Shown here piece by piece: positions 19,076 through 55,960 of a stretch of 64,000 nucleotides of DNA. The translations under genes were made by a program, and so were the position numbers. How positions within the stretch are numbered: position 1 is the stretch's first letter; every line of letters starts with the position of its first letter. The DNA lies in contig NZ_AAWS01000002.1 of assembly GCF_000169175.1 (NCBI RefSeq), positions 124,001 through 188,000 of the forward strand, given 5' to 3'. The notes below the pieces were generated by a model, which saw nothing but the letters and a program-made list of their open reading frames with translations, was not told the DNA's origin and did no database searches. The DNA comes from Microscilla marina ATCC 23134. GTDB taxonomy: Bacteria; Bacteroidota; Bacteroidia; Cytophagales; Microscillaceae.

Positions 19076-21889
19076 CTAAAAAATAATATTAAGAGCTAAA
19101 TTAGGAGTAAAGCCTAATTGGGTGACATCAAAGCGAACCAATTCACTCACTTTTTTACCACCTTTGCCTTTAGGGTCAATTTCCAGCTCTTCAAAAGTGA
19201 CACTTCTGATGTTTTTTTGTCCATAAAGGTTAAATACCGAAGCACTGATTTGCCCTTTACCTCTGCGGCCAAACCTAAAGTTAAACGTAGCTGCTATGTC
19301 TAAACGGCTATAGTCTGGCAGACGCAGTGTTTTGCCTCTGGCAAGTGCGTGTAAGTCAGTTTGTCTTACATTTTTATCTTCCAACAACAACTCGCCGTCT
19401 TGTATGCGACGGGCAAAGCCCTTAGGCAAGCGATACCCCCTGCCAGTGCCATACACAAAAGTAGCCGAAAAGTCGAACCTGCCCAGCGAGAGCATATTCA
19501 CCGATTTGAACTCATGAGGCGTAGACGCTGAAGGAGTAAAAGGCTGGTTTTTATCAATGGCTCTGAATTGGTAAGTAAGGTCATTGAACGAATAGCTTAG
19601 CCATCCGGTATATTTACCTTTTTTCTTTTGCAATAGTATATCTACTCCCTGACTTACGCCATTGCCTGGGTTATACCTTTCATCATTGTCAATGATTTCT
19701 CCCCTGCGTACCTGCCGGGCATCAAAGTCATAAAACACCAGACCATTCAATGTTTTATAATATCCCTCTACATCAATGGTAAACAAATTGGTTTGCAGGG
19801 TAAAACCTGCAATCAAGTGATTAGACTCCAGAATGGGTATATTTTCGCCATCGGGCAACGTCCAAAAGTCAAAGCCACTTTCGCGTAAATCACTGGTAAT
19901 AATTTGGCTGATAAATTGGTAGTATTTACCTGCGGCACCCTTGAATTTTAGTTTTTTTGTAGCATCATACTGAAACGATAGCCTTGGGGCAACATAAGGG
20001 GTTTGGTTCAGGTTGTAATAAGTAAAACGTAGTCCTGCATTGACTTGCAATCTTTTTGCCGGACGAAAAGCATCTTGCACATACAAGGTGTACTGGGTGC
20101 CTGTGGTGCTTCGGCTTTCAAACAGGTATTCATTGTCTACCAATTGCTTGTACTTAATGTTGTTGTAGGTAGACATAAGTCCAAACGACAAAGTATGGCT
20201 GTGGTCAATGGTCCAGTCGTTGTCCCAGCGAAAAGTAATGTCATCCAAGTCATTATTTTGTTTACTGCTATCTTCCTCCTTCAGTATCACTCCATCACCT
20301 TCGTCTTGCTTTTGTATCGACTCTCCCGCATAAATGCCATAATATCTGGAGTAACCCAGCTTAACATTGCTATAAAACTTTTGGCTCCATAATCTGCCCC
20401 ATCGGAAGCCAACGCCTGTATTTCCCCATTCTAACTGATCATTTACCAGCATTTCTACGTCTACCTCTCGTTTTTTAGGAGCTTTATCTTCTCCTGATGG
20501 TGGGTTTCCTGGTCCACCACCACCACCAGGTTTGGGCTTTTTTTGTGGGGGAGGTAACTTTGCCCTGCCTTCAAACTCACTCGATATATACACATCGTCT
20601 TTGCCGTTGTAGACACTTAAGGCTAAAATATCTTTTTTAGTGGGACGAATGGTATACTTTACGTTCAAATCATAAAAGTTAACTTTGGTACTGGGTGCCT
20701 GCTCACGGTCTTCTTTGGGGTCAAATAAAAAACGGATGCGGGGCTGACTCGATGCATAGTTTGCCAGTGAGTCGGACACTGGACTGGCAAAAATATCGCG
20801 GTACGACCGCCGCCCGGCAATCAACAATGAAGCATTGTGTTTGAGCGGTACCTCTACAAACAGGTTAGAGCTGACCATGTTCATCCCTACACCTACTTTG
20901 GTTTTGTATTGATCTCCCGCTTTTCCGGTAATATCTATGACGCTCGAAACCCGTCCTCCAAACTTGGCTGGAAACCCCCCTTTATATACTTGAATATCTT
21001 TGATGGCATTGGCGTTAAATGCACTGAAGATGCCTAAGAAATGATCGGTGTGGTATACCGAAAAACCATCAAAATAAATCAGGTTTTGGTCAGGGGTGCT
21101 GCCCCGTACACTGAGTCCGGCGGTAGTTTCATTGGTGGCATTAATGCCTGGCAACCATTGTAAAGTTCTAAAAATATCGTTTTCGCCTAAATTAGGCAGC
21201 GAAGAGAACTTGGCAGGATTGATAGATATTTGCCCCACATCACCTGAGGGTTGAACCATTTTTGCCTGGTACTCTACCACTACCTCTTTGAGCTGACTTA
21301 TAATGGGGGTAAGCTTGATTATATATTTGGTTTGTCCTGCTTTAAGTGCGTAATTCTTGGTTTCATAGCCTATATACGACACTTCGATAGTAGCAGGAGT
21401 TATGGGCATATTAGCCAAGGCAAAAATACCGTCTACGTTGGTTACTGTACCTCGTCGGGTATCCAACACCCTGATGTTGGCAAAGGGGAGAAGTTCGCCC
21501 GTAGTGGCATCTTTTATCTTTCCGGTAATGTTTATTGTTTCAGGAGGCTTCTTGGGGTGGTTATCAGGATCAGTGACTTTTTTAAAGAGTACTACTTTGT
21601 TACCTCTTACTATGCTAAAACGAATGGGATGCTGTTGTAAAAGTTGGGTGAGCGTTTCTTGCAGGTTTTTTTTGTTAATGCGTTGATTTACCTTGATGCC
21701 TTTCACCAGGCGCGAGTCATAGGCAATCTTTACATGGTACTTTTTACTAATGGTGGCAAGCGCTTGTTTCAACGTTACATTGTCGAAACGCTCGCTAATA
21801 ATAACAACTTGGCTTTGAACCGGCAATAAACCGACCCAAAGCCAAGCTAGTAATGGTAATAAGTAGTACTTCCTCTGCATTTGTTTCAT
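19076..21889 (-). CDS. TonB-dependent outer-membrane receptor with STN and carboxypeptidase-regulatory-like domains
   Basis: This 937-aa protein has a signal peptide (1-26). An STN domain (about 30-105, TLKQALATISKKYHVKIAYD) is the part that talks to anti-sigma factors. A carboxypeptidase-regulatory-like domain follows (about 120-205, GTVTNVDGIFALANMP), then a plug (about 215-330, GLSVRGSTPDQNLIYFDG) and a beta-barrel ending LALNIIF. A Pro/Gly-rich loop with KKPKPGGGGGPGNPP lies near 455-475. The start overlaps the stop of the anti-sigma gene by 4 bp, so the genes are translationally coupled. The substrate is unknown; cell-surface signalling of the FecIR type is expected. Confidence 0.93.
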   Translation of the reverse strand: MKQMQRKYYLLPLLAWLWVGLLPVQSQVVIISERFDNVTLKQALATISKKYHVKIAYDSRLVKGIKVNQRINKKNLQETLTQLLQQHPIRFSIVRGNKVVLFKKVTDPDNHPKKPPETINITGKIKDATTGELLPFANIRVLDTRRGTVTNVDGIFALANMPITPATIEVSYIGYETKNYALKAGQTKYIIKLTPIISQLKEVVVEYQAKMVQPSGDVGQISINPAKFSSLPNLGENDIFRTLQWLPGINATNETTAGLSVRGSTPDQNLIYFDGFSVYHTDHFLGIFSAFNANAIKDIQVYKGGFPAKFGGRVSSVIDITGKAGDQYKTKVGVGMNMVSSNLFVEVPLKHNASLLIAGRRSYRDIFASPVSDSLANYASSQPRIRFLFDPKEDREQAPSTKVNFYDLNVKYTIRPTKKDILALSVYNGKDDVYISSEFEGRAKLPPPQKKPKPGGGGGPGNPPSGEDKAPKKREVDVEMLVNDQLEWGNTGVGFRWGRLWSQKFYSNVKLGYSRYYGIYAGESIQKQDEGDGVILKEEDSSKQNNDLDDITFRWDNDWTIDHSHTLSFGLMSTYNNIKYKQLVDNEYLFESRSTTGTQYTLYVQDAFRPAKRLQVNAGLRFTYYNLNQTPYVAPRLSFQYDATKKLKFKGAAGKYYQFISQIITSDLRESGFDFWTLPDGENIPILESNHLIAGFTLQTNLFTIDVEGYYKTLNGLVFYDFDARQVRRGEIIDNDERYNPGNGVSQGVDILLQKKKGKYTGWLSYSFNDLTYQFRAIDKNQPFTPSASTPHEFKSVNMLSLGRFDFSATFVYGTGRGYRLPKGFARRIQDGELLLEDKNVRQTDLHALARGKTLRLPDYSRLDIAATFNFRFGRRGKGQISASVFNLYGQKNIRSVTFEELEIDPKGKGGKKVSELVRFDVTQLGFTPNLALNIIF

Positions 21890-23952
21890 TGAATCACGAC
21901 TGTTTTAGTACTGTCATTTTTGATCGTGTACTTTAAACTCATGGGGTCGCAAATAAATTTTAAAGCCGAAGCTAAATCCTTGTTAGAGAAAAAACCAGTA
22001 TACAACCTGTTTTTAACATCTGTTTTGTATTCTATTTTTACGTTGAATTGGCGGGCTAGTTCGTCAAATACTTGCTTAAGAGGCGTTTCCTGGTATTGAA
22101 AGTCACCTGTACGCCAGTTAGAGGCATTGGTTTTGTCAAACTGATAAGGCTTTAGTTTTTCGCCCTCTAGTTTTGAGCCCATTCCTGGAGTCAATACCAA
22201 AGAAGCATTTCTGGTAGCAGTAGTAAGCTTTACTTTTCCAGTCATACATTCCACCTTGAAATCTTTTTGCCGGGTATACACATTAAAGCTAGTCCCTAGC
22301 ACTTCTACCTTGCCTACTGCGGTGTTTACTTGAAATTCGCTCCCTTTTTTTACCTGAAAAAAAGCTTCTCCGTTTAGCTCCACATTTCTATTTTGATCCC
22401 AATTATCCGTTTGGTAGATAATACGTGAGTCGGCGTTGAGTGTGGCCATTGAACCATCGGGCAAAGCAATACTTTTTTGCTCTCCCAACTGAGTACTCGC
22501 CACTGTAAGTGGGGTACTACTTGTCATACTGCGAAAGATAAAAAATGTGCCCAGTAAAATAATTACACTGGCAGCGGCGGCATATACCTTGCGCATAGAA
22601 ATGCTGCGAGTAGTAGCGCCCTGAGTCTGTTGAATATCCTGGTTGATCTTTTGCCAGAGGTGGTCTATGCGGGTTTGCGATACTTCTGTTTTTTCGGTAC
22701 CCTTTATCAGCGCCTTGGCTTGGTCAATTACCTCTTCTTTTTCGGGGTTTTGTTCCAGCCAGGTGTTCCAGTGCTGGGTTGTCTCCTCGTCAGGTTCGGT
22801 TACCCACACAAAAAACGAGGGGTCGTTGGCGAAGTCTTCAGCCGTAAAGTTAGCATATTGGTCAATGGCCTCTATACCGCTTTCAATGTTGTTCCAAAGG
22901 TTGCCAATGCGACTGTCGATGCGGTTCCACAAATCATCGATTTTGTGCTGCGGAATCTCTTCTTCCTTTACCTGAATCAACCCAATGAGCTTTTTAGCCT
23001 CTTCAATCAATCCTTTTTTTTCGGGGTGTTGCTCTAGCCAAGTGTTCCAGTGTTGGTCTGTCTTTGCATCAGGTTCGTTTACCCAGGCAAAAAACGAGGG
23101 ATCATTGGCAAAGTCTTCAGCCGTAAAATCAGCATATTGGTCAATGGCCTCCATGCCGCTTTCAATGTTGTTCCAAAGGCTGCCAATGCGACTGTCGATG
23201 CGGTTCCACAAATCATCGATTTTGTGCTGCGGAATCTCTTCTTCCTTTACCTGAATCAACCCAATGAGCTTTTTAGCCTCTTCTACCAACCCTGCTTTTT
23301 CGGGATGTTGTCGCATCCAGGTGTTCCAATATTGGTCTGCCTTTGCATCAGGTTCGTTTACCCAGGCAAAAAACGAGGGATCATTGGCAAAGTCTTCGGC
23401 CGTAAAATCAGCATATTGGTCAATGGCCTCCATACCGCTTTCAATGTTGTTCCAAAGGTTGTCAATGCGGCTGTCGATGCGGTTCCACAAATCATCGATT
23501 TTGCTTTGCGGAATCTCCTCTTCGGTGAGTTGCAACATACCAATCAACGATTTAGCTTTTTTCACTAAAGCGTGTTTTGTTGGGTTTTGCTCCAGCCATG
23601 CCTTCCAGTGTTGGTCTGCTTCTTTGTTGGGTTCAGTTACCCAGGCAAAAAATGAAGGGTCATCGGCAAAATCTTCGGCAGTAGTGTACTGCTTGTATTT
23701 GTCTAAAGCCTCTATTCCAGCGTCAATTTTGTTCCAGAGCGAATGTATTCTCTCTGTTGGCACGTCCTCTTCTACAATGTCGAGGGCGCCAAGTAAAGCT
23801 CTAGCCTCCGTAATAACGGCGTACTTGTCGGGGTGTTTTTCAATCCATTGGTTCCAAAAATCGTTGCTTTTGGGATCAGGATTTGTCACCCAGGCGTAGA
23901 ACTGCGGATCTTCTGCAAAATCCTCTACGTTAAAGTCGTGATACTTATCCAT
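21886..23952 (-). CDS. FecR-family anti-sigma factor with five N-terminal module copies
   Basis: This 688-aa protein has five copies of the cytoplasmic anti-sigma module at about residues 1-89, 90-182, 183-275, 276-368 and 369-450. Each has the pattern D-F-A-x-D-P-x-F-x-x-W-V, then W-x-x-W, then x-x-P and A-x-x-L-I/L. A membrane helix follows (about 457-473, AAAASVIILLGTFFIF), then a FecR domain (about 495-605, LPDGSMATLNADSRI) and a C-terminal DUF4974-like STN partner (about 620-688). Ordinary FecR proteins are about 320-400 residues with a single module. Copies 2-5 end in or share IDDLWNRIDSRI-type helices. The gene lies between the sigma gene and the receptor gene. Confidence 0.93.
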   Translation of the reverse strand: MDKYHDFNVEDFAEDPQFYAWVTNPDPKSNDFWNQWIEKHPDKYAVITEARALLGALDIVEEDVPTERIHSLWNKIDAGIEALDKYKQYTTAEDFADDPSFFAWVTEPNKEADQHWKAWLEQNPTKHALVKKAKSLIGMLQLTEEEIPQSKIDDLWNRIDSRIDNLWNNIESGMEAIDQYADFTAEDFANDPSFFAWVNEPDAKADQYWNTWMRQHPEKAGLVEEAKKLIGLIQVKEEEIPQHKIDDLWNRIDSRIGSLWNNIESGMEAIDQYADFTAEDFANDPSFFAWVNEPDAKTDQHWNTWLEQHPEKKGLIEEAKKLIGLIQVKEEEIPQHKIDDLWNRIDSRIGNLWNNIESGIEAIDQYANFTAEDFANDPSFFVWVTEPDEETTQHWNTWLEQNPEKEEVIDQAKALIKGTEKTEVSQTRIDHLWQKINQDIQQTQGATTRSISMRKVYAAAASVIILLGTFFIFRSMTSSTPLTVASTQLGEQKSIALPDGSMATLNADSRIIYQTDNWDQNRNVELNGEAFFQVKKGSEFQVNTAVGKVEVLGTSFNVYTRQKDFKVECMTGKVKLTTATRNASLVLTPGMGSKLEGEKLKPYQFDKTNASNWRTGDFQYQETPLKQVFDELARQFNVKIEYKTDVKNRLYTGFFSNKDLASALKFICDPMSLKYTIKNDSTKTVVIQ
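22848..23406 (-). repeat. 279-bp in-frame tandem repeat inside the anti-sigma gene
   Basis: Two adjacent units (modules 3 and 4; 23406-23128 and 23127-22849) are nearly identical at DNA level with a 279-bp period. For example, the block reading CGACTGTCGATGCGGTTCC recurs at 22910 and 23189. Flanking modules are more diverged, so expansion seems recent and may still be unstable. Confidence 0.9.
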
Positions 23953-24069: not shown

Positions 24070-24642
24070 TTACAACAAACCACTACTTATGAGTAATGCC
24101 CATGCCAAAAAATTCTTCTTTAATGCTTTGAGTGCACTGTAAACAAGGTTTCGAGCCGATTGATAGTTAATATCCATGATGTTCGAAATTTCGTTGTACT
24201 CCAGTCCCTGATAGTATTTCAGGTAAATGGCCTCTTTTTGCCTTTTCGATAATTTTTGCAGCTGTCCTTGTAATTTTTTGTTGTTCAACTCATTAGTTTC
24301 GTCACTAATGATCATCTCTTCGGGGGTAAACTCCACCTCAAAATTATAATTTTCTATGTCTGTATTTTTATCATATTTTTTATTTTCAGAAGTAGATTTT
24401 CTGATAATTTTTCGGCGCAAAGAACTGAGCAAGTAAAGCTTGATAGAGTCGGTTTTACCCAAGTTTTGTCGGTTTTTCCAAATTTCAAGAAACAAGTCCT
24501 GGATACAGTCTTCAACCAATGCATCGTTTACGGTAAATTTCCTTCCGTACTTATACAAAAGTCTTACGTGTTGATTATAAATTTGTGAGAGGGCGGTTTT
24601 ATCTCCCTGTTTGAACTTTTCCCACAACAATGCATCTTCCAT
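24070..24642 (-). CDS. ECF sigma-70 factor (FecI-type)
   Basis: This 190-aa protein has sigma region 2 at about 20-85 (ALVEDCIQDLFLEIWKNRQNL) and region 4 at about 128-175 (LSKRQKEAIYLKYYQGLEYN, EISNIMDINYQSARNLVYSA). The C-terminal tail is hydrophobic (LAWALLISSGLL), as is common in the Bacteroidota subgroup. It is followed on the same strand by the multi-module anti-sigma gene (117-bp gap) and the TonB receptor. The expected circuit is receptor STN to FecR to sigma. Confidence 0.93.
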   Translation of the reverse strand: MEDALLWEKFKQGDKTALSQIYNQHVRLLYKYGRKFTVNDALVEDCIQDLFLEIWKNRQNLGKTDSIKLYLLSSLRRKIIRKSTSENKKYDKNTDIENYNFEVEFTPEEMIISDETNELNNKKLQGQLQKLSKRQKEAIYLKYYQGLEYNEISNIMDINYQSARNLVYSALKALKKNFLAWALLISSGLL

Positions 24643-25390
24643 AAAAAACTGAATAAGTTCTGTGTGTCAAATAGTTTTAAAGTAGAGTAAACGAATTGCA
24701 AGTTTTATGTTTCCAAACAATTAAAAATATTTATTGTTTACTCTTTTTCAATAGTGCAACGCTTTTCACGTCGATAAGATCAAACTAGCCAAGTGTGATA
24801 GGTTATTCGCTCAAAAAAAGTCACCTTTGGGGCTTTTGGGCAAACAATCAGAAAACTCAGTAGCATAGCAGTATAATTTTCAAAACCAATGTTTTTAGAA
24901 TATTGGTAGAAACTTATGCTTACGCAACGGCTTTTGACCATCGACTGAACGTTGTGAACTATTGTCTTTTTGATAATCTCGCAAAATGCGCAAGATTCGA
25001 GCCATAGGTTGTGTAAACTTTAAGGTTCGAACCAATAACAAATATAGAGAGTTTTGGGGGGAGGGCAACATGGAAAGCCAAGTATTTGAAGGCAATGGCT
25101 CAATCCGAGCATTTGCGTATCTTCATCTGTAAATTTTCAAAAGTTAAGGTGAAAAACCTCTTTTTGTTACACAAAATTTTAATATCGCTGCTTAACATAG
25201 CTCTATCTTTAGCCATTCTATAAAACAAATGATTTACTTGCTAATTTTGTTCAATATCAAGTATTCACAAAAAAATATTTACTAATTCAACGCTGTGTTT
25301 TTTGTTTTTGATAGGTAAACATTTTTACTGCTAAAATATCTAATATGTTCAAAATGGCTAAAGTAGAGCTTACAATTAGGTATTAGTAGG
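24643..25390. other. 750-bp intergenic, nothing recognised
   Basis: This AT-rich stretch lies between the sigma gene and the DUF1328 array. Short frames (for example 24895-25095 on the minus strand) show no family features. Presumably it holds the sigma-gene promoter; no clear consensus was found. Confidence 0.5.
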
Positions 25391-25555
25391 CTATACCTTT
25401 CGGAGAAATTTCATTAGAATGGCTCCAACGAACACCACAATAAAAATGTAGAATAAAATTTTGGCGATTCCGGCAATACCAGCGGCCATTCCACCAAATC
25501 CAAGTACAGCAGAAACAAGGGCTAAAATAAGTAAAGTAACAATTAATCTGATCAT
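25391..25555 (-). CDS. DUF1328 (UPF0391) small membrane protein, copy 1
   Basis: This 54-aa protein consists almost entirely of two hydrophobic helices ([19 protein letters not shown], then [20 protein letters not shown]) with a short basic end. It matches the DUF1328/YtjA family, stress-related inner-membrane micro-proteins of unknown role. It begins ATG-ATC-AGA like the other three copies. It lies in a tandem array with a period of about 275 bp. Confidence 0.88.
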
Positions 25556-25664
25556 AAAATTTAAGGTTAGTAGTTAGTGGTTAATAAATTGATTGCATAA
25601 GGTTGATATTCAACTCAAATGATTGAGAGATTTAAAAGAGCCAGAACAGGCGCTTATGACGAGG

Positions 25665-25829
25665 TTAAACTCTCCGGACGAATTTCATGAGCAGGGCTGC
25701 AACGAAAACACCAAGGAGAAGGTAGAATAAAGCTTTGGCAATTCCTGCAATACCAGCCGCGATTCCCCCAAATCCAAGTACGGCAGAAATAAGGGCTAGA
25801 ATGAGTATAGTAATAATTATTCTGATCAT
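25665..25829 (-). CDS. DUF1328 small membrane protein, copy 2
   Basis: This 54-aa copy is the most diverged of the four. It reads [19 protein letters not shown] in the first helix, LLLGVFVAALLMKF in the second, and ends VRRV. The glycine-rich turn [12 protein letters not shown] is kept. Retention of frame despite divergence suggests that the array is under selection. Confidence 0.88.
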   Translation of the reverse strand: MIRIIITILILALISAVLGFGGIAAGIAGIAKALFYLLLGVFVAALLMKFVRRV

Positions 25830-25941
25830 AAAATTTAAGATTATAAGTAGTTAGTGGTTAATAAATTGATTGCATAAGGTTGATATTCAACTCAAATGAT
25901 TGAGAGATTTATAAGAGCCAGAACAGGCGCTTATGACGAAG

Positions 25942-26106
25942 CTATACCTTTCGGAGAAATTTCATTAGAATGGCTCCAACGAACACCACGATAAAAATGT
26001 AGAATAAAATTTTGGCGATTCCGGCAATACCAGCGGCCATTCCCCCAAATCCAAGTACAGCAGAAACAAGGGCTAAAATAAGTAAAGTAACAATTAATCT
26101 GATCAT
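25942..26106 (-). CDS. DUF1328 small membrane protein, copy 3
   Basis: This 54-aa copy is almost identical to copy 1 in protein and DNA. Spacers between copies also match: the sequence TTAGTGGTTAATAAATTGAT and a tract ending GCCAGAACAGGCGCTTAT recur in each. It is probably transcribed with the others from the 26380 side. Confidence 0.88.
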
Positions 26107-26215
26107 AAAATTTAAGGTTAGTAGTTAGTGGTTAATAAATTGATTGCATAAGGTTGATATTCAACTCAAATGATTGAGAGATTTATAAGAGCCAGAACAG
26201 GCGCTTATAACGAAG

Positions 26216-26380
26216 CTATACCTTTCGGAGAAATTTCATTAGAATGGCTCCAACGAATACCACGATAAAGACATAGAATAAAACTTTGGCGATTCCAGCA
26301 ATACCAGCGGCCATTCCCCCAAATCCAAGTACAGCAGAAACAAGGGCTAAAATAAGTAAAGTAACAATTAATCTGATCAT
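26216..26380 (-). CDS. DUF1328 small membrane protein, copy 4 (first of the array)
   Basis: This 54-aa copy is nearly identical to copies 1 and 3 but reads [16 protein letters not shown] in the second helix. Its upstream DNA differs from the spacers of the other copies, so the array promoter probably lies at about 26390-26500. Confidence 0.87.
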
Positions 26381-52228: not shown

Positions 52229-52251
52229 ACAAAAAGTTTTAGTATATTGGC

Positions 52252-52284
52252 AAGCCTTGTTCCTGTGTGGGGCAGGGCTTTTTT
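52252..52284 (+). terminator. Intrinsic terminator, LRR array unit 1
   Basis: AAGCCTTG (52252-52259) pairs with CAGGGCTT (52273-52280), then T6. The same terminator follows the next two genes almost unchanged. Confidence 0.82.
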
Positions 52285-52306
52285 GTTGGACAAAAACCTG
52301 AATACT

Positions 52307-53473
52307 ATGAAAAAATATATTGGGCTATGCAGTTTCCTGTTTTTGCTGACAATGACCAGCTGCGCCCAAAACAAGCAAAACGCCGTGAAACTATTGAGTA
52401 TGGAAGCATTAGAAAAAATGGAGGCAGTAGCTCTTGAAAAAGCGTTGGAAAAGCCAGAGGAGGTGATAAAGCTAGATTTAACAGGAAATGGTAAGAAGCA
52501 TATTCAGACTTTGGGGCAGTTTAAGAACCTACAATATTTATCTCTTGAAGGATCTGAGTTGGGCGAAATACCAAAGGTAGTATTTGACTTGCCCCATTTA
52601 CAGTGGTTAAATATAGTAGATAATAAGTTAGATAAATTGCCCAAAGGCATAGGTAAATTAGCTCAAATACGTAGGTTAGATGTAGGAAGCAACCCTTTTA
52701 CTGAGTTACCAGCCGAAATCGGTAAATTAACTACACTTGAGGAGTTAGGTTTGGCAAGTACCCAAATTAAAACTTACCCACAGGAGTTTGCTAATTTAAA
52801 AAAATTACATTCAATCAATTTCCTAATGGCTAATGTGAAAGAGTTACCTGAGGTATTGGGTAAGCTATCTTCACTTAAAAACATCTATTTGCACTTTAAC
52901 CCTGAAATTGATTCTAAACAAGTGTTTGGTGTATTGACCAAACTGCCAAATCTGGAGGTGTTAATTTATGACAACTGTAATGTAACTACTTTGCCACAAG
53001 AAGTAACTCAGCTGAAAAGCCTAAAAAAGTTTGAGTTTGGTGATAAGGATATAAATACAAGTCAGGTATTAAAGTTATTAGGAGAGTTACCGAAACTTGA
53101 GTACTCAACCATGAGCGTATTAAAAACTTTACCGAAAGACGTTAGACAATTAAAAAAACTAAAAACCTTACAGTTAATGTTAACAAAAAATACTCAAGAA
53201 GAACAAGACCAAGTATTTATAAGCTTACAAGGAATGTCCTCACTAAAGTATTTACATGTGTATGGTGATGATTTTAAACCTTTGACCAAAGAAATAGGTA
53301 AACTTGCCCAATTGACAACCTTAAAGCTCATTGGTAATAGTTTGAAAACGCTTCCCGAAGAAATTAAAAATCTTACAAAATTACAGTTGTTAGACCTTAC
53401 ACGAAACGATTTCTCCGACCAAGAAAAAGCCCGCATCAAAAAATTATTACCGAATACCGAGATTAAGTTTTAA
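52307..53473 (+). CDS. LRR lipoprotein, array copy 2
   Basis: This 388-aa protein has a lipoprotein signal ending LLTMTSC, followed by AQNKQNAVKLLSMEALEKM. About fourteen leucine-rich repeats of roughly 22-23 residues follow (LPKGIGKLAQIRRLDVGSN type), and it ends ARIKKLLPNTEIKF. The start is placed at 52307; an upstream TTG frame runs through the terminator and is not credible. It probably sits in the outer or inner membrane as a binding surface. First 100 and last 70 bp are nearly identical to the other copies; the middle is diverged. Confidence 0.9.
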   Translation: MKKYIGLCSFLFLLTMTSCAQNKQNAVKLLSMEALEKMEAVALEKALEKPEEVIKLDLTGNGKKHIQTLGQFKNLQYLSLEGSELGEIPKVVFDLPHLQWLNIVDNKLDKLPKGIGKLAQIRRLDVGSNPFTELPAEIGKLTTLEELGLASTQIKTYPQEFANLKKLHSINFLMANVKELPEVLGKLSSLKNIYLHFNPEIDSKQVFGVLTKLPNLEVLIYDNCNVTTLPQEVTQLKSLKKFEFGDKDINTSQVLKLLGELPKLEYSTMSVLKTLPKDVRQLKKLKTLQLMLTKNTQEEQDQVFISLQGMSSLKYLHVYGDDFKPLTKEIGKLAQLTTLKLIGNSLKTLPEEIKNLTKLQLLDLTRNDFSDQEKARIKKLLPNTEIKF

Positions 53474-53496
53474 ACAAAAAGTTTTGGTATATTGGC

Positions 53497-53530
53497 AAGC
53501 CTTGTTCCTGTGTGGGGCAGGGCTTTTTTT
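53497..53530 (+). terminator. Intrinsic terminator, LRR array unit 2
   Basis: AAGCCTTG pairs with CAGGGCTT (53518-53525), followed by a T run. It is identical in stem to the ones at 52252 and 54742, so it is duplicated with the gene. Confidence 0.85.
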
Positions 53531-53551
53531 ATGGACGAAAACCTGAATGAT

Positions 53552-54718
53552 ATGAAAACATATATTGGGCTATGCAGTTTCCTGTTTTTGCTGACAATGA
53601 CCAGCTGCGCCCAAAACAAGCAAAACGCCGTGAAACTATTGAGTATGGAAGCGTTAGAGAAAATGGAAACTATAGACCCTGAAGAAGCTATTAAAAAGCC
53701 TGAAGATGTGGTTAAATTAAATTTTGCGGATTTAGGGAAACAGTATATTCAGGAGCTAGGTAAATTTACTAACTTACAATATTTAAAGTTAGAAGCTAAT
53801 AAGTTAGATGAGGTTCCTGTGGAGCTTTTTAAGCTTAAAAATTTACAATACCTCAATATTTCATCTAACCAAATAAGCAAATTATCGGCTGACTTTGGGA
53901 AGTTAAAATCTTTACAGGTTTTATATTTAGGTAATAACCCATTAGAAAGCTTACCTAAAGAGTTTGTGAATTTAAGTAATTTGAAGTTTTTAAGCTTGAT
54001 TAATACCAAGATTAAGTCTTATCCAACGGAGTTAGACAAGCTAAAAAATTTAGAGCAATTAGTGTTACAAAATGCTAATATAACTACATTACCTGAGCAG
54101 TTTGGTAAGCTCAGTTCTTTGAAAGAAGTTTACTTAAACTACAATCCTGAAATTGACCTTAAACAAGTGTCAAAGGTTTTATCTAAGTTGCCAAATTTGG
54201 ATGAAATAGTACTAACCAATAGTAACATAAAGGCTTTGCCATCAGAATTGACAGGCTTAAACCATCTCAAAAAGTTCTCTATTGATGCTAAAGTACTAGA
54301 TATTCAACAAGCCCTCACAATACTCAAAAAATTACCTAAACTAGAGTTTATATATATATACAAACTTTCAGCTCTTCCAGTAGAAGTAAAAGAGCTAAGA
54401 CAGCTTAAGAAAGCAATGTTTTGGTTACAAAGACCAACCCAATCAGATTGGGAATCTCTATTTAATAACTTAGCAATGTTAGGATCTTTAGAAGATTTAC
54501 AGGTTTATGGAGGAGGAGGTAAGGCTATACCTAAACAAATAGAGCAATTTCAGAAATTGAAATCCTTGCGTTTAGCTGGGAATGGTTTAACAACGCTTCC
54601 CGAAGAAATAAAAAACCTTACAAACCTTAAGCTTCTAAACTTGGAAATGAATAAGTTCCCCCCCGAAGAAAAAGCCCGCATCAAAAAACTATTACCCAAT
54701 ACTGAGATTAAGTTTTAA
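53552..54718 (+). CDS. LRR lipoprotein, array copy 3
   Basis: This 388-aa protein has the same signal (LLTMTSC) and start block as copy 2. The repeats differ at most variable positions: LKNLQYLNISSNQISKLS, LGNNPLESLPKEFVNLSNLK, LAGNGLTTLPEEIKNLTNLK. A non-canonical central part (DAKVLDIQQALTILKKLPKL) interrupts the LRRs in every copy at the same place. It ends FPPEEKARIKKLLPNTEIKF. It has its own terminator and start signals, so copies could be expressed separately. Confidence 0.9.
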   Translation: MKTYIGLCSFLFLLTMTSCAQNKQNAVKLLSMEALEKMETIDPEEAIKKPEDVVKLNFADLGKQYIQELGKFTNLQYLKLEANKLDEVPVELFKLKNLQYLNISSNQISKLSADFGKLKSLQVLYLGNNPLESLPKEFVNLSNLKFLSLINTKIKSYPTELDKLKNLEQLVLQNANITTLPEQFGKLSSLKEVYLNYNPEIDLKQVSKVLSKLPNLDEIVLTNSNIKALPSELTGLNHLKKFSIDAKVLDIQQALTILKKLPKLEFIYIYKLSALPVEVKELRQLKKAMFWLQRPTQSDWESLFNNLAMLGSLEDLQVYGGGGKAIPKQIEQFQKLKSLRLAGNGLTTLPEEIKNLTNLKLLNLEMNKFPPEEKARIKKLLPNTEIKF

Positions 54719-54741
54719 ACAAAAAGTTTTAGTATATTGGC

Positions 54742-54775
54742 AAGCCTTGTTCCTGTGTGGGGCAGGGCTTTTTTT
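54742..54775 (+). terminator. Intrinsic terminator, LRR array unit 3
   Basis: AAGCCTTG (54742-54749) pairs with CAGGGCTT (54763-54770), then a T run. It has the same stem as the two preceding units. Confidence 0.85.
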
Positions 54776-54796
54776 ATGGACGAAAATCTGAATAAT

Positions 54797-55960
54797 ATGA
54801 AAAGATATATTGGGCTATGTGGCTTCCTGCTTTTGCTGACAATGACCAGTTGTGCCCAAAACAAGCAAAACGCCGTGAAACTATTGAGTATGGAAGCGTT
54901 AGAGAAACTAGAGCGAATACACCCCGAAAAAGCATTGGAGAAGCCAGAGGAGGTAATGAAATTAGAGCTAACAGGAGGATCATTTAATGATGTGATACCA
55001 AAGCTTAAGTCATTTAAAAACCTTCAATATCTTTCTTTAGAAAGTTGTAATTTGGGTAAAATACCTGGGGTTGTATTTGATTTGAAACAGTTACAAGTAT
55101 TGAATGTAGTAGGAAATAAGCTGAGTATTTTGCCTAAGCAAATAGGCTCGCTTGTAAACTTGCAAAAGTTAGAAGTTGCATTTAACCCTTTTACACAACT
55201 GCCAGCAGAAATAGGAAAGTTAGAAAAGTTAGAGCATCTGAACTTGTCAGGTGTTCAATTATCGTCTTATCCTTCTGAGTTTACCAAATTAAATAATCTA
55301 AAGGAGGTTATTTTACAACAAAGTAACATTACATCTTTACCAGAGCAGTATAAAGGCTTATCATCTTTAAGTTCTATATGGTTAAACCAGAATCCAAATC
55401 TTAACCTGTCAGAAACATTTAAGGTGCTGTCTACATTGCCAAAGTTGGCTGAAGTAATACTTACAGATTCTGATATAAAAGTGTTATCAACCGATCTACC
55501 TGTATTACCTTCTTTAAAGAAGCTACTGGTAGATGCTAAAAATCTAGATGTAAAGCAATCTATTCCGTTTTTGAAAAAACTAAGTGGATTAAAGCATTTG
55601 TATTTAGAGAATGTAAGTAAGGTACCAGAAAACCTTGAGCAACTAACTCAAGTAAAAGAATTAGTTTTACGTTTGAGAATGGAGAATAAAGAGGATATAC
55701 AGCAATTATTTGCAAATATTGAAGCGATGTCTTCGCTTAATCTATTACAGGTTTATGGTGTGAAATCATTGCCTACAAATATAGGAGAACTAACAAACTT
55801 AACTACATTAAATTTAAGGGGAAATTTTTTAAAAACACTTCCAGAAGAAATTAAGAGCCTTAGCAATCTTAAGTTGCTAGATTTACAAATCAATAGCTTC
55901 CCTCCCGAAGAAAAAGCCCGCATCAAAAAACTATTACCCAATACCGAGATTAAGTTTTAA
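54797..55960 (+). CDS. LRR lipoprotein, array copy 4
   Basis: This 387-aa protein has signal LLLLTMTSC and the same start block. Its LRR surface residues differ from copies 2 and 3 (LESCNLGKIPGVVFDLKQLQ, LRGNFLKTLPEEIKSLSNLK). It ends FPPEEKARIKKLLPNTEIKF. The sequence after its stop keeps AAACAAAAAGTTTTGGTATAT but then departs from the unit, marking the right edge of the duplication. Confidence 0.9.
   Translation: MKRYIGLCGFLLLLTMTSCAQNKQNAVKLLSMEALEKLERIHPEKALEKPEEVMKLELTGGSFNDVIPKLKSFKNLQYLSLESCNLGKIPGVVFDLKQLQVLNVVGNKLSILPKQIGSLVNLQKLEVAFNPFTQLPAEIGKLEKLEHLNLSGVQLSSYPSEFTKLNNLKEVILQQSNITSLPEQYKGLSSLSSIWLNQNPNLNLSETFKVLSTLPKLAEVILTDSDIKVLSTDLPVLPSLKKLLVDAKNLDVKQSIPFLKKLSGLKHLYLENVSKVPENLEQLTQVKELVLRLRMENKEDIQQLFANIEAMSSLNLLQVYGVKSLPTNIGELTNLTTLNLRGNFLKTLPEEIKSLSNLKLLDLQINSFPPEEKARIKKLLPNTEIKF

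Follow-up and report, generated by a model that had tools for sequence, protein, structure and literature searches.

The minus strand of the window (the whole 64,000-nucleotide stretch of Microscilla marina ATCC 23134 DNA analysed here) carries, at 21886-23952, a gene for a 688-residue sigma regulator whose N-terminus is built of one domain repeated five times in tandem (83, 94, 93, 93 and 84 residues), followed by a likely transmembrane helix and a periplasmic FecR domain. By the features tested, the protein is a FecR-type regulator, unusual in how many N-terminal modules it has. The five copies are present in a second species of the genus and all are under purifying selection, and a second expansion, of three modules of another subfamily, occurs in the same two genomes. 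We know of no link between Microscilla and disease.

Domain architecture and genomic context

The regulator gene has an ATG start and is an intact open reading frame. The original prediction, of a module repeated five times in frame before a transmembrane helix and FecR domain, is borne out: all ten module pairs score above every shuffle (500 shuffles per pair), the lowest identity being 34/78, between copies 1 and 5, and the highest 85/93, between copies 3 and 4. Beginning from the N-terminus, and all on the minus strand, the modules are module 1 (aa 1-83, 23704-23952), module 2 (aa 84-177, 23422-23703), module 3 (aa 178-270, 23143-23421), module 4 (aa 271-363, 22864-23142) and module 5 (aa 364-447, 22612-22863), the last of which adjoins the membrane. 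A period of 93 residues had been proposed, which describes copies 2 to 4 (94, 93 and 93 residues) and fails for copies 1 and 5 (83 and 84). The two copies that had been singled out as nearly identical in DNA are copies 3 and 4, at 93% identity; the longest exact run common to them is 103 nt in the window and 91 nt in the sister genome. At the DNA level one repeat finder reported three 300-nt copies at a spacing of 279 nt (100, 88 and 79% identity to the reference copy), and a second reported a period of 279 with 3.4 copies. A motif of the last helix, LW(N/Q)xI, occurs twice in each of modules 2, 3 and 4, the repeats being 11 residues apart, and once in modules 1 and 5, for eight motifs in five modules.

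The array is followed by the likely transmembrane helix (aa ~453-473, 22534-22596), a hydrophobic run in the sequence that the AF2 model also draws as a helix (pLDDT <50 there); by the FecR domain (PF04773, aa 485-575, 22228-22500; E 3.2e-20, 72.8 bits against a cut-off of 24); and by a FecR_C domain (PF16344, aa 618-681, 21910-22101; E 2.1e-11, 44.1 bits against a cut-off of 24.4). The Pfam search of the regulator returned no FecR N-terminal family match. A DUF7146 match (27.5 bits, cut-off 27) was taken as noise summed over the repeats, as no single stretch passes.

The regulator gene lies between a sigma factor gene and a TonB-dependent receptor gene on the same strand. Upstream, an ECF-type sigma factor gene is located at 24070-24642 (minus strand, 190 aa; Sigma70_r2 and r4_2 above cut-off), just where the original prediction had placed it, and its product is 98% identical to the sister-genome sigma. 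Downstream, with a 4 bp overlap between the stop of the regulator gene and the start of the receptor gene, is a 937-residue TonB-dependent receptor (19076-21889, minus strand) containing an N-terminal STN/FecR_C-type signalling domain, a carboxypeptidase-regulatory-like domain, a plug and a barrel (Pfam). The regulator thus has the neighbours expected of a FecR-type protein, an adjacent ECF sigma factor and a TonB receptor that carries a signalling domain, and the three together have the gene content of a cell-surface signalling system like FecI/FecR/FecA.

A dyad, GAGTAAAC-N43-GTTTACTC, lies upstream of the sigma gene (24685-24743, minus strand) and is kept in the sister genome, there with a spacer of N44; upstream of this dyad the sister DNA differs, by eye. 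Also upstream of the sigma gene, on the minus strand at 25391-26380, are four similar tandem genes encoding 54-residue membrane-protein-like products, which presumably resemble DUF1328, and this gene array overlaps a 274-bp tandem repeat. On the plus strand at 52247-55960 the window contains three consecutive paralogous frames of ~408 codons with a mutual identity of 53-54%, the first of which has a lipoprotein-like signal by eye.

The repeated unit and its single-copy relatives

A search of the order with profile A1, built from the five window modules and two single-copy relatives, matched 177/390 genomes, and the frames among the matches listed are mostly 330-400 residues long. From loci gathered with this profile, which contains the window modules, we compiled 29 distinct single-module proteins (one of them, L034, a frame of 120 codons only), and computed conservation on these 29 alone. 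Fourteen alignment positions are conserved in at least 70% of them; the 29 themselves keep 7 to 14 of these positions, and modules 1 to 5 keep 13, 13, 12, 13 and 13, including three Trp. Because every module keeps 12-13 of the 14 family-conserved positions, each is, by sequence, a complete copy of the single N-terminal domain ordinary in many Bacteroidota FecR proteins. The N-terminal family domain expected of a FecR-type regulator is accordingly present five times over.

All fetched loci with a clear A1 match contain one copy each, except the window's own protein (L001), in a count made without the loci of the sister genome and without duplicates of the window locus. Against A1, the three-module protein L009 described below gives two weak matches (E 0.02-0.04). 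Two other arrangements of the domain were observed. In L117 (G419:C175), a 569-codon frame, a single FecR-type N-terminal module is joined to a long part that is non-FecR-like by eye. Short frames with such a module occur at G360:C13 and G334:C1 (161 codons each), G346:C10 (134 codons) and G195:C1 (120 codons); too short for a FecR domain, they are possible free-standing modules or broken genes.

Occurrence of multi-module FecR proteins

FecR-domain frames number six in the window's genome and five in the sister, and two in each (2/6 and 2/5) are multi-module. The second multi-module protein (L003 at G000:C50 and, in the sister, L009 at G001:C102; 496 residues stop to stop) has three diverged modules that belong to a different N-terminal subfamily from the window modules, and its gene adjoins a sigma gene of its own. 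That L003 has three modules is concluded from a shuffle test and alignment, in which module identities are 25/67, 29/69 and 28/74, with scores reached by 0/2000 shuffles per pair. Its array shows dN/dS values of 0.36, 0.67 and 0.35, on 7-9 nonsynonymous and 3-6 synonymous changes, indicating weak constraint.

FecR proteins with repeated N-terminal modules were sought across the order and the class with two further, tandem profiles, A2 and A4, built both from pairs that are neighbours in the proteins and from self-joined modules (for A4, those of the three-module type). Both contain Microscilla modules, and top scores in that genus are hence expected. A2 matched 171/385 genomes of the order and 32/395 of the class; A4 matched 219/390 of the order and 124/385 of the class. 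The genome sets overlap; those of the order include both Microscilla genomes, those of the class only G000. Among the matches listed in the A1 survey of the order and the A2 and A4 surveys of order and class, none outside Microscilla has more than one module per frame; at most the best 9 candidates per genome were scored with A2 or A4 and the best 14 with A1, a depth at which diverged or lower-ranked cases can be missed. A few rows of other genomes, for example G091, G146 and G739, cover the two halves of a tandem profile in model coordinates, but with about one module of DNA or a frame of ordinary length; G082:C3 spans 414 nt of a tandem profile, but has one module only; and in some other tandem-profile rows the matches run across stop codons. 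Ten unusually long frames have one significant module each, with two weak extra matches (E 1.3 and 6) elsewhere in two of the frames. The best A1 match outside the genus, among the matches listed, is the single-module G006 protein (L013/L019), whose sigma, regulator and receptor genes are, by eye, in the same order as at the window locus.

A single N-terminal module is therefore the norm, in agreement with the original prediction, and multi-module FecR proteins appear to be known here, among the matches listed, only from the genus Microscilla. In the open-licence literature, none of the titles and abstract openings listed (weak evidence of absence) reports repeated sigma-binding domains in FecR or any other anti-sigma factor.

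Origin, conservation and selection

Five modules, at 94-95% protein identity, are also encoded in the sister genome, G001, which is of the same genus (record L012, uncultured Microscilla sp.). An assembly artefact, the objection that accompanied the original prediction, is ruled out because the sister has the identical copy number in a separate assembly. In a tree with the 29 single modules (82 columns), all ten modules from the two species group as one clade with an ultrafast bootstrap of 99, and the array therefore arose inside the Microscilla lineage.

Between the window and the sister, dN/dS for modules 1 to 5 is 0, 0.01, 0.21, 0.17 and 0.24, module 1 having 0 nonsynonymous changes, and for the membrane and periplasmic part it is 0.09. 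All five modules are under purifying selection. Conservation is greatest in modules 1 and 2, which lie farthest from the membrane, and lowest in module 5, which changes fastest. The copy number is five in both species at a module dS of 0.11-0.40, with no decayed copy.

Alignment of copies 3 and 4 from both species reveals 10 nucleotide sites at which both copies of one species differ together from both copies of the other; they fall at positions 72, 75, 151-156 and 183-197 within the module. Another 11 sites distinguish copy 3 from copy 4 in each of the two species, 1 is crossed, and 18 are changed in a single sequence. Such a pattern points most readily to gene conversion in tracts.

Proposed multivalent binding of the cognate sigma

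A sigma/anti-sigma switch is generally regarded as a one-to-one pairing. The reading to which we give an even chance is that the modules bind the cognate sigma multivalently, with copy number setting how much sigma is held and released; we judge it the most likely because the same conserved domain is present five times, in copies that are all constrained, next to one sigma gene. Sigma binding by a module is inferred by analogy with E. coli, where, in the available part of the source, residues 9-59 of FecR interact with FecI and activate it, short N-terminal FecR fragments activate FecI, and induction-negative FecR mutants hit conserved Leu and Trp, the conserved Trp being required (PMC9249621). 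RseP frees a cytoplasmic fragment of FecR, and this fragment activates (PMC8144685, in the part available).

Under multivalent binding, a sigma-binding cytoplasmic domain would have been multiplied to five within the Microscilla lineage. Each module could hold one sigma (the product of 24070-24642), and one membrane protein might then store up to five. A signal from the receptor would lead to cleavage of the regulator in the membrane, such that one event would free a five-module fragment together with its sigmas. Because the freed N-terminal fragment of E. coli FecR itself activates sigma, each signalling event could yield several active sigma-module complexes from the freed array, and module copy number would set both the sequestration threshold and the gain. 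Two expansions of different subfamilies in one genus argue for a use of some kind. Against multivalent binding stand the rapid change of module 5, the weak constraint on the L003 array and a presumed anti-sigma fold without a structural match (below).

Orphan sigma region 2 proteins

In both genomes, a search with the window sigma returned two 96-codon frames that rank after the sigma itself and before the full-length paralogues. Their products, 92 residues long, have sigma region 2 without region 4, and we call them orphans: one at G000:C9:106517-106792 (L087, L127) and the other at G000:C5:108497-108772 (L085, L133), with sister copies L084 and L086. Such proteins offer a second candidate reading, a division of labour in which some modules would bind sigma and others related partners, above all these two putative region 2 mimics, which would free the real sigma as anti-anti-sigma factors. 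We rate this as rather unlikely.

Several features of the orphans speak for mimicry. Two are present per genome, they are 44-47% identical to the N-terminal half of the window sigma, and they are conserved between the species (dN/dS 0.14 on 8 nonsynonymous changes and 0.07 on 1). In a search with one orphan of 15 genomes of the family, the best match beyond the two Microscilla genomes was the G006 sigma, at 33%. At sigma position 48, which we take to be the beta-prime clamp or core-polymerase contact of region 2.2, 74 of the 86 full-length sigmas encoded at the fetched loci have Q (9 have H, 2 have S and 1 has A); in all four orphans, which make up two orthologue pairs, the residue is V or L, with other conserved positions such as F51 and W55 kept. 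The two orphan genes also share ~60 bp upstream, with a GCTAACA/TGTTAGC-type dyad (local score 46 versus a maximum of 37 in 2000 shuffles). The modules in turn offer a possible docking site, in that class I anti-sigma domains contact sigma region 4 through helix 1 and region 2 through helix 4 (PMC7406223, in the part available) and modules 2-4 carry the doubled last-helix motif.

On the other side, the orphan genes are on other contigs than the window and unlinked to the FecR locus, and their shared element is absent from the 64-kb window, where the sigma operon carries a different dyad. The sigma of the three-module FecR likewise has no orphan of its own; among its 39 matches in the genome, the only frame <150 residues is one of the window-sigma orphans.

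Predicted structure of the modules

The AF2 model of module 3 contains five helices (8-12, 15-22, 26-38, 40-58 and 65-91; mean pLDDT 79). In the full-length AF2 model four short helices recur five times, with block means of pLDDT of ~54-85 there; this model is poor outside the modules (mean pLDDT 46.5). Foldseek comparison of the module model with the PDB gave no match at E <= 10, and the module profile gave no significant match to PDB sequences (best E 0.16).

The long helix (65-91) that ends the module 3 model and the motif repeated 11 residues apart in modules 2-4 are consistent with another function for part of the array, in which one or two modules alone would bind sigma and the rest would act as a spacer, for self-association or as a docking scaffold, holding sigma away from the membrane or forming a regulator dimer. 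The cytoplasmic domain of PupR reportedly dimerises, according to the title of a study cited in PMC9249621, which would fit such a role. We find it doubtful, since no module has lost the core conserved in the family, and since conservation is strongest in modules 1 and 2, at the far end from the membrane, something a spacer would not require.

Multivalent binding and mimicry may also act together. A multivalent sigma sponge could be paired with the two orphan mimics, perhaps co-induced via their shared element, which would occupy module sites (above all the extra motifs in modules 2-4) and release several sigmas at once; the whole of this combination we think distinctly unlikely. If true, sponge-plus-mimic would amount to a titration switch of graded valency, with an antagonist that acts by sigma mimicry outside Alphaproteobacteria. 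The binding of several different full-length sigmas, one of the uses put forward in the original prediction, is less likely, because, of the other full-length sigmas found in the genome, the closest shares 28% identity with the window sigma and because FecR is reported to be specific for FecI (PMC9249621, in the part available); the orphans are more plausible as a second partner. Neutral repeat expansion, by in-frame tandem duplications tolerated and homogenised by recombination without functional gain, we consider improbable: gene conversion between copies 3 and 4 and the other tandem gene families in the 64-kb window would suit it, but copy number is equal in two species with none decayed, modules 1 and 2 are strongly constrained, and the genus has a second array of another subfamily.

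The five- and three-module regulators of one genus allow a direct approach to the question of whether anti-sigma valency tunes threshold, noise and gain, with the orphan sigma-2 proteins adding a candidate mimicry layer.

Comparison with known systems

RsoA/SigO is the two-part sigma of Bacillus subtilis, and likewise has a separate region-2-like sigma protein; the present case differs in that, among the matches listed, no frame is short enough for a region-4-only partner. With PhyR-NepR, the sigma-factor mimicry of Alphaproteobacteria, the orphans would share the principle that an anti-sigma factor is titrated by a protein resembling sigma, a likeness that does not apply to the FecR itself; they differ from it in being without a receiver domain (92 aa, region 2 only).

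In their predicted form the modules resemble the class I anti-sigma domains of RseA, ChrR and RsiW in being small, all-helical and cytoplasmic, with a last helix that follows a break and lies next to a likely membrane helix, a likeness without a fold match by Foldseek. E. coli FecR is itself a member of group AS243 of class I, whose proteins are described, in the available part of the source, with one N-terminal domain (PMC7406223), as against five here.

Closest are FecR/FecI/FecA of E. coli, PupR and FpvR. These systems and the window locus alike have a sigma gene, a TonB receptor bearing an N-terminal signalling domain, and a membrane regulator whose periplasmic part holds FecR and C-terminal domains, and in FecR, PupR and FpvR, as here, the N-terminal cytoplasmic domain has conserved Trp. 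In contrast to theirs, the domain subfamily here is widespread in this order and without the FecR N-terminal Pfam match, and the regulator has five N-terminal domains where FecR-type regulators normally have one, a number that is usual for such proteins rather than defining.
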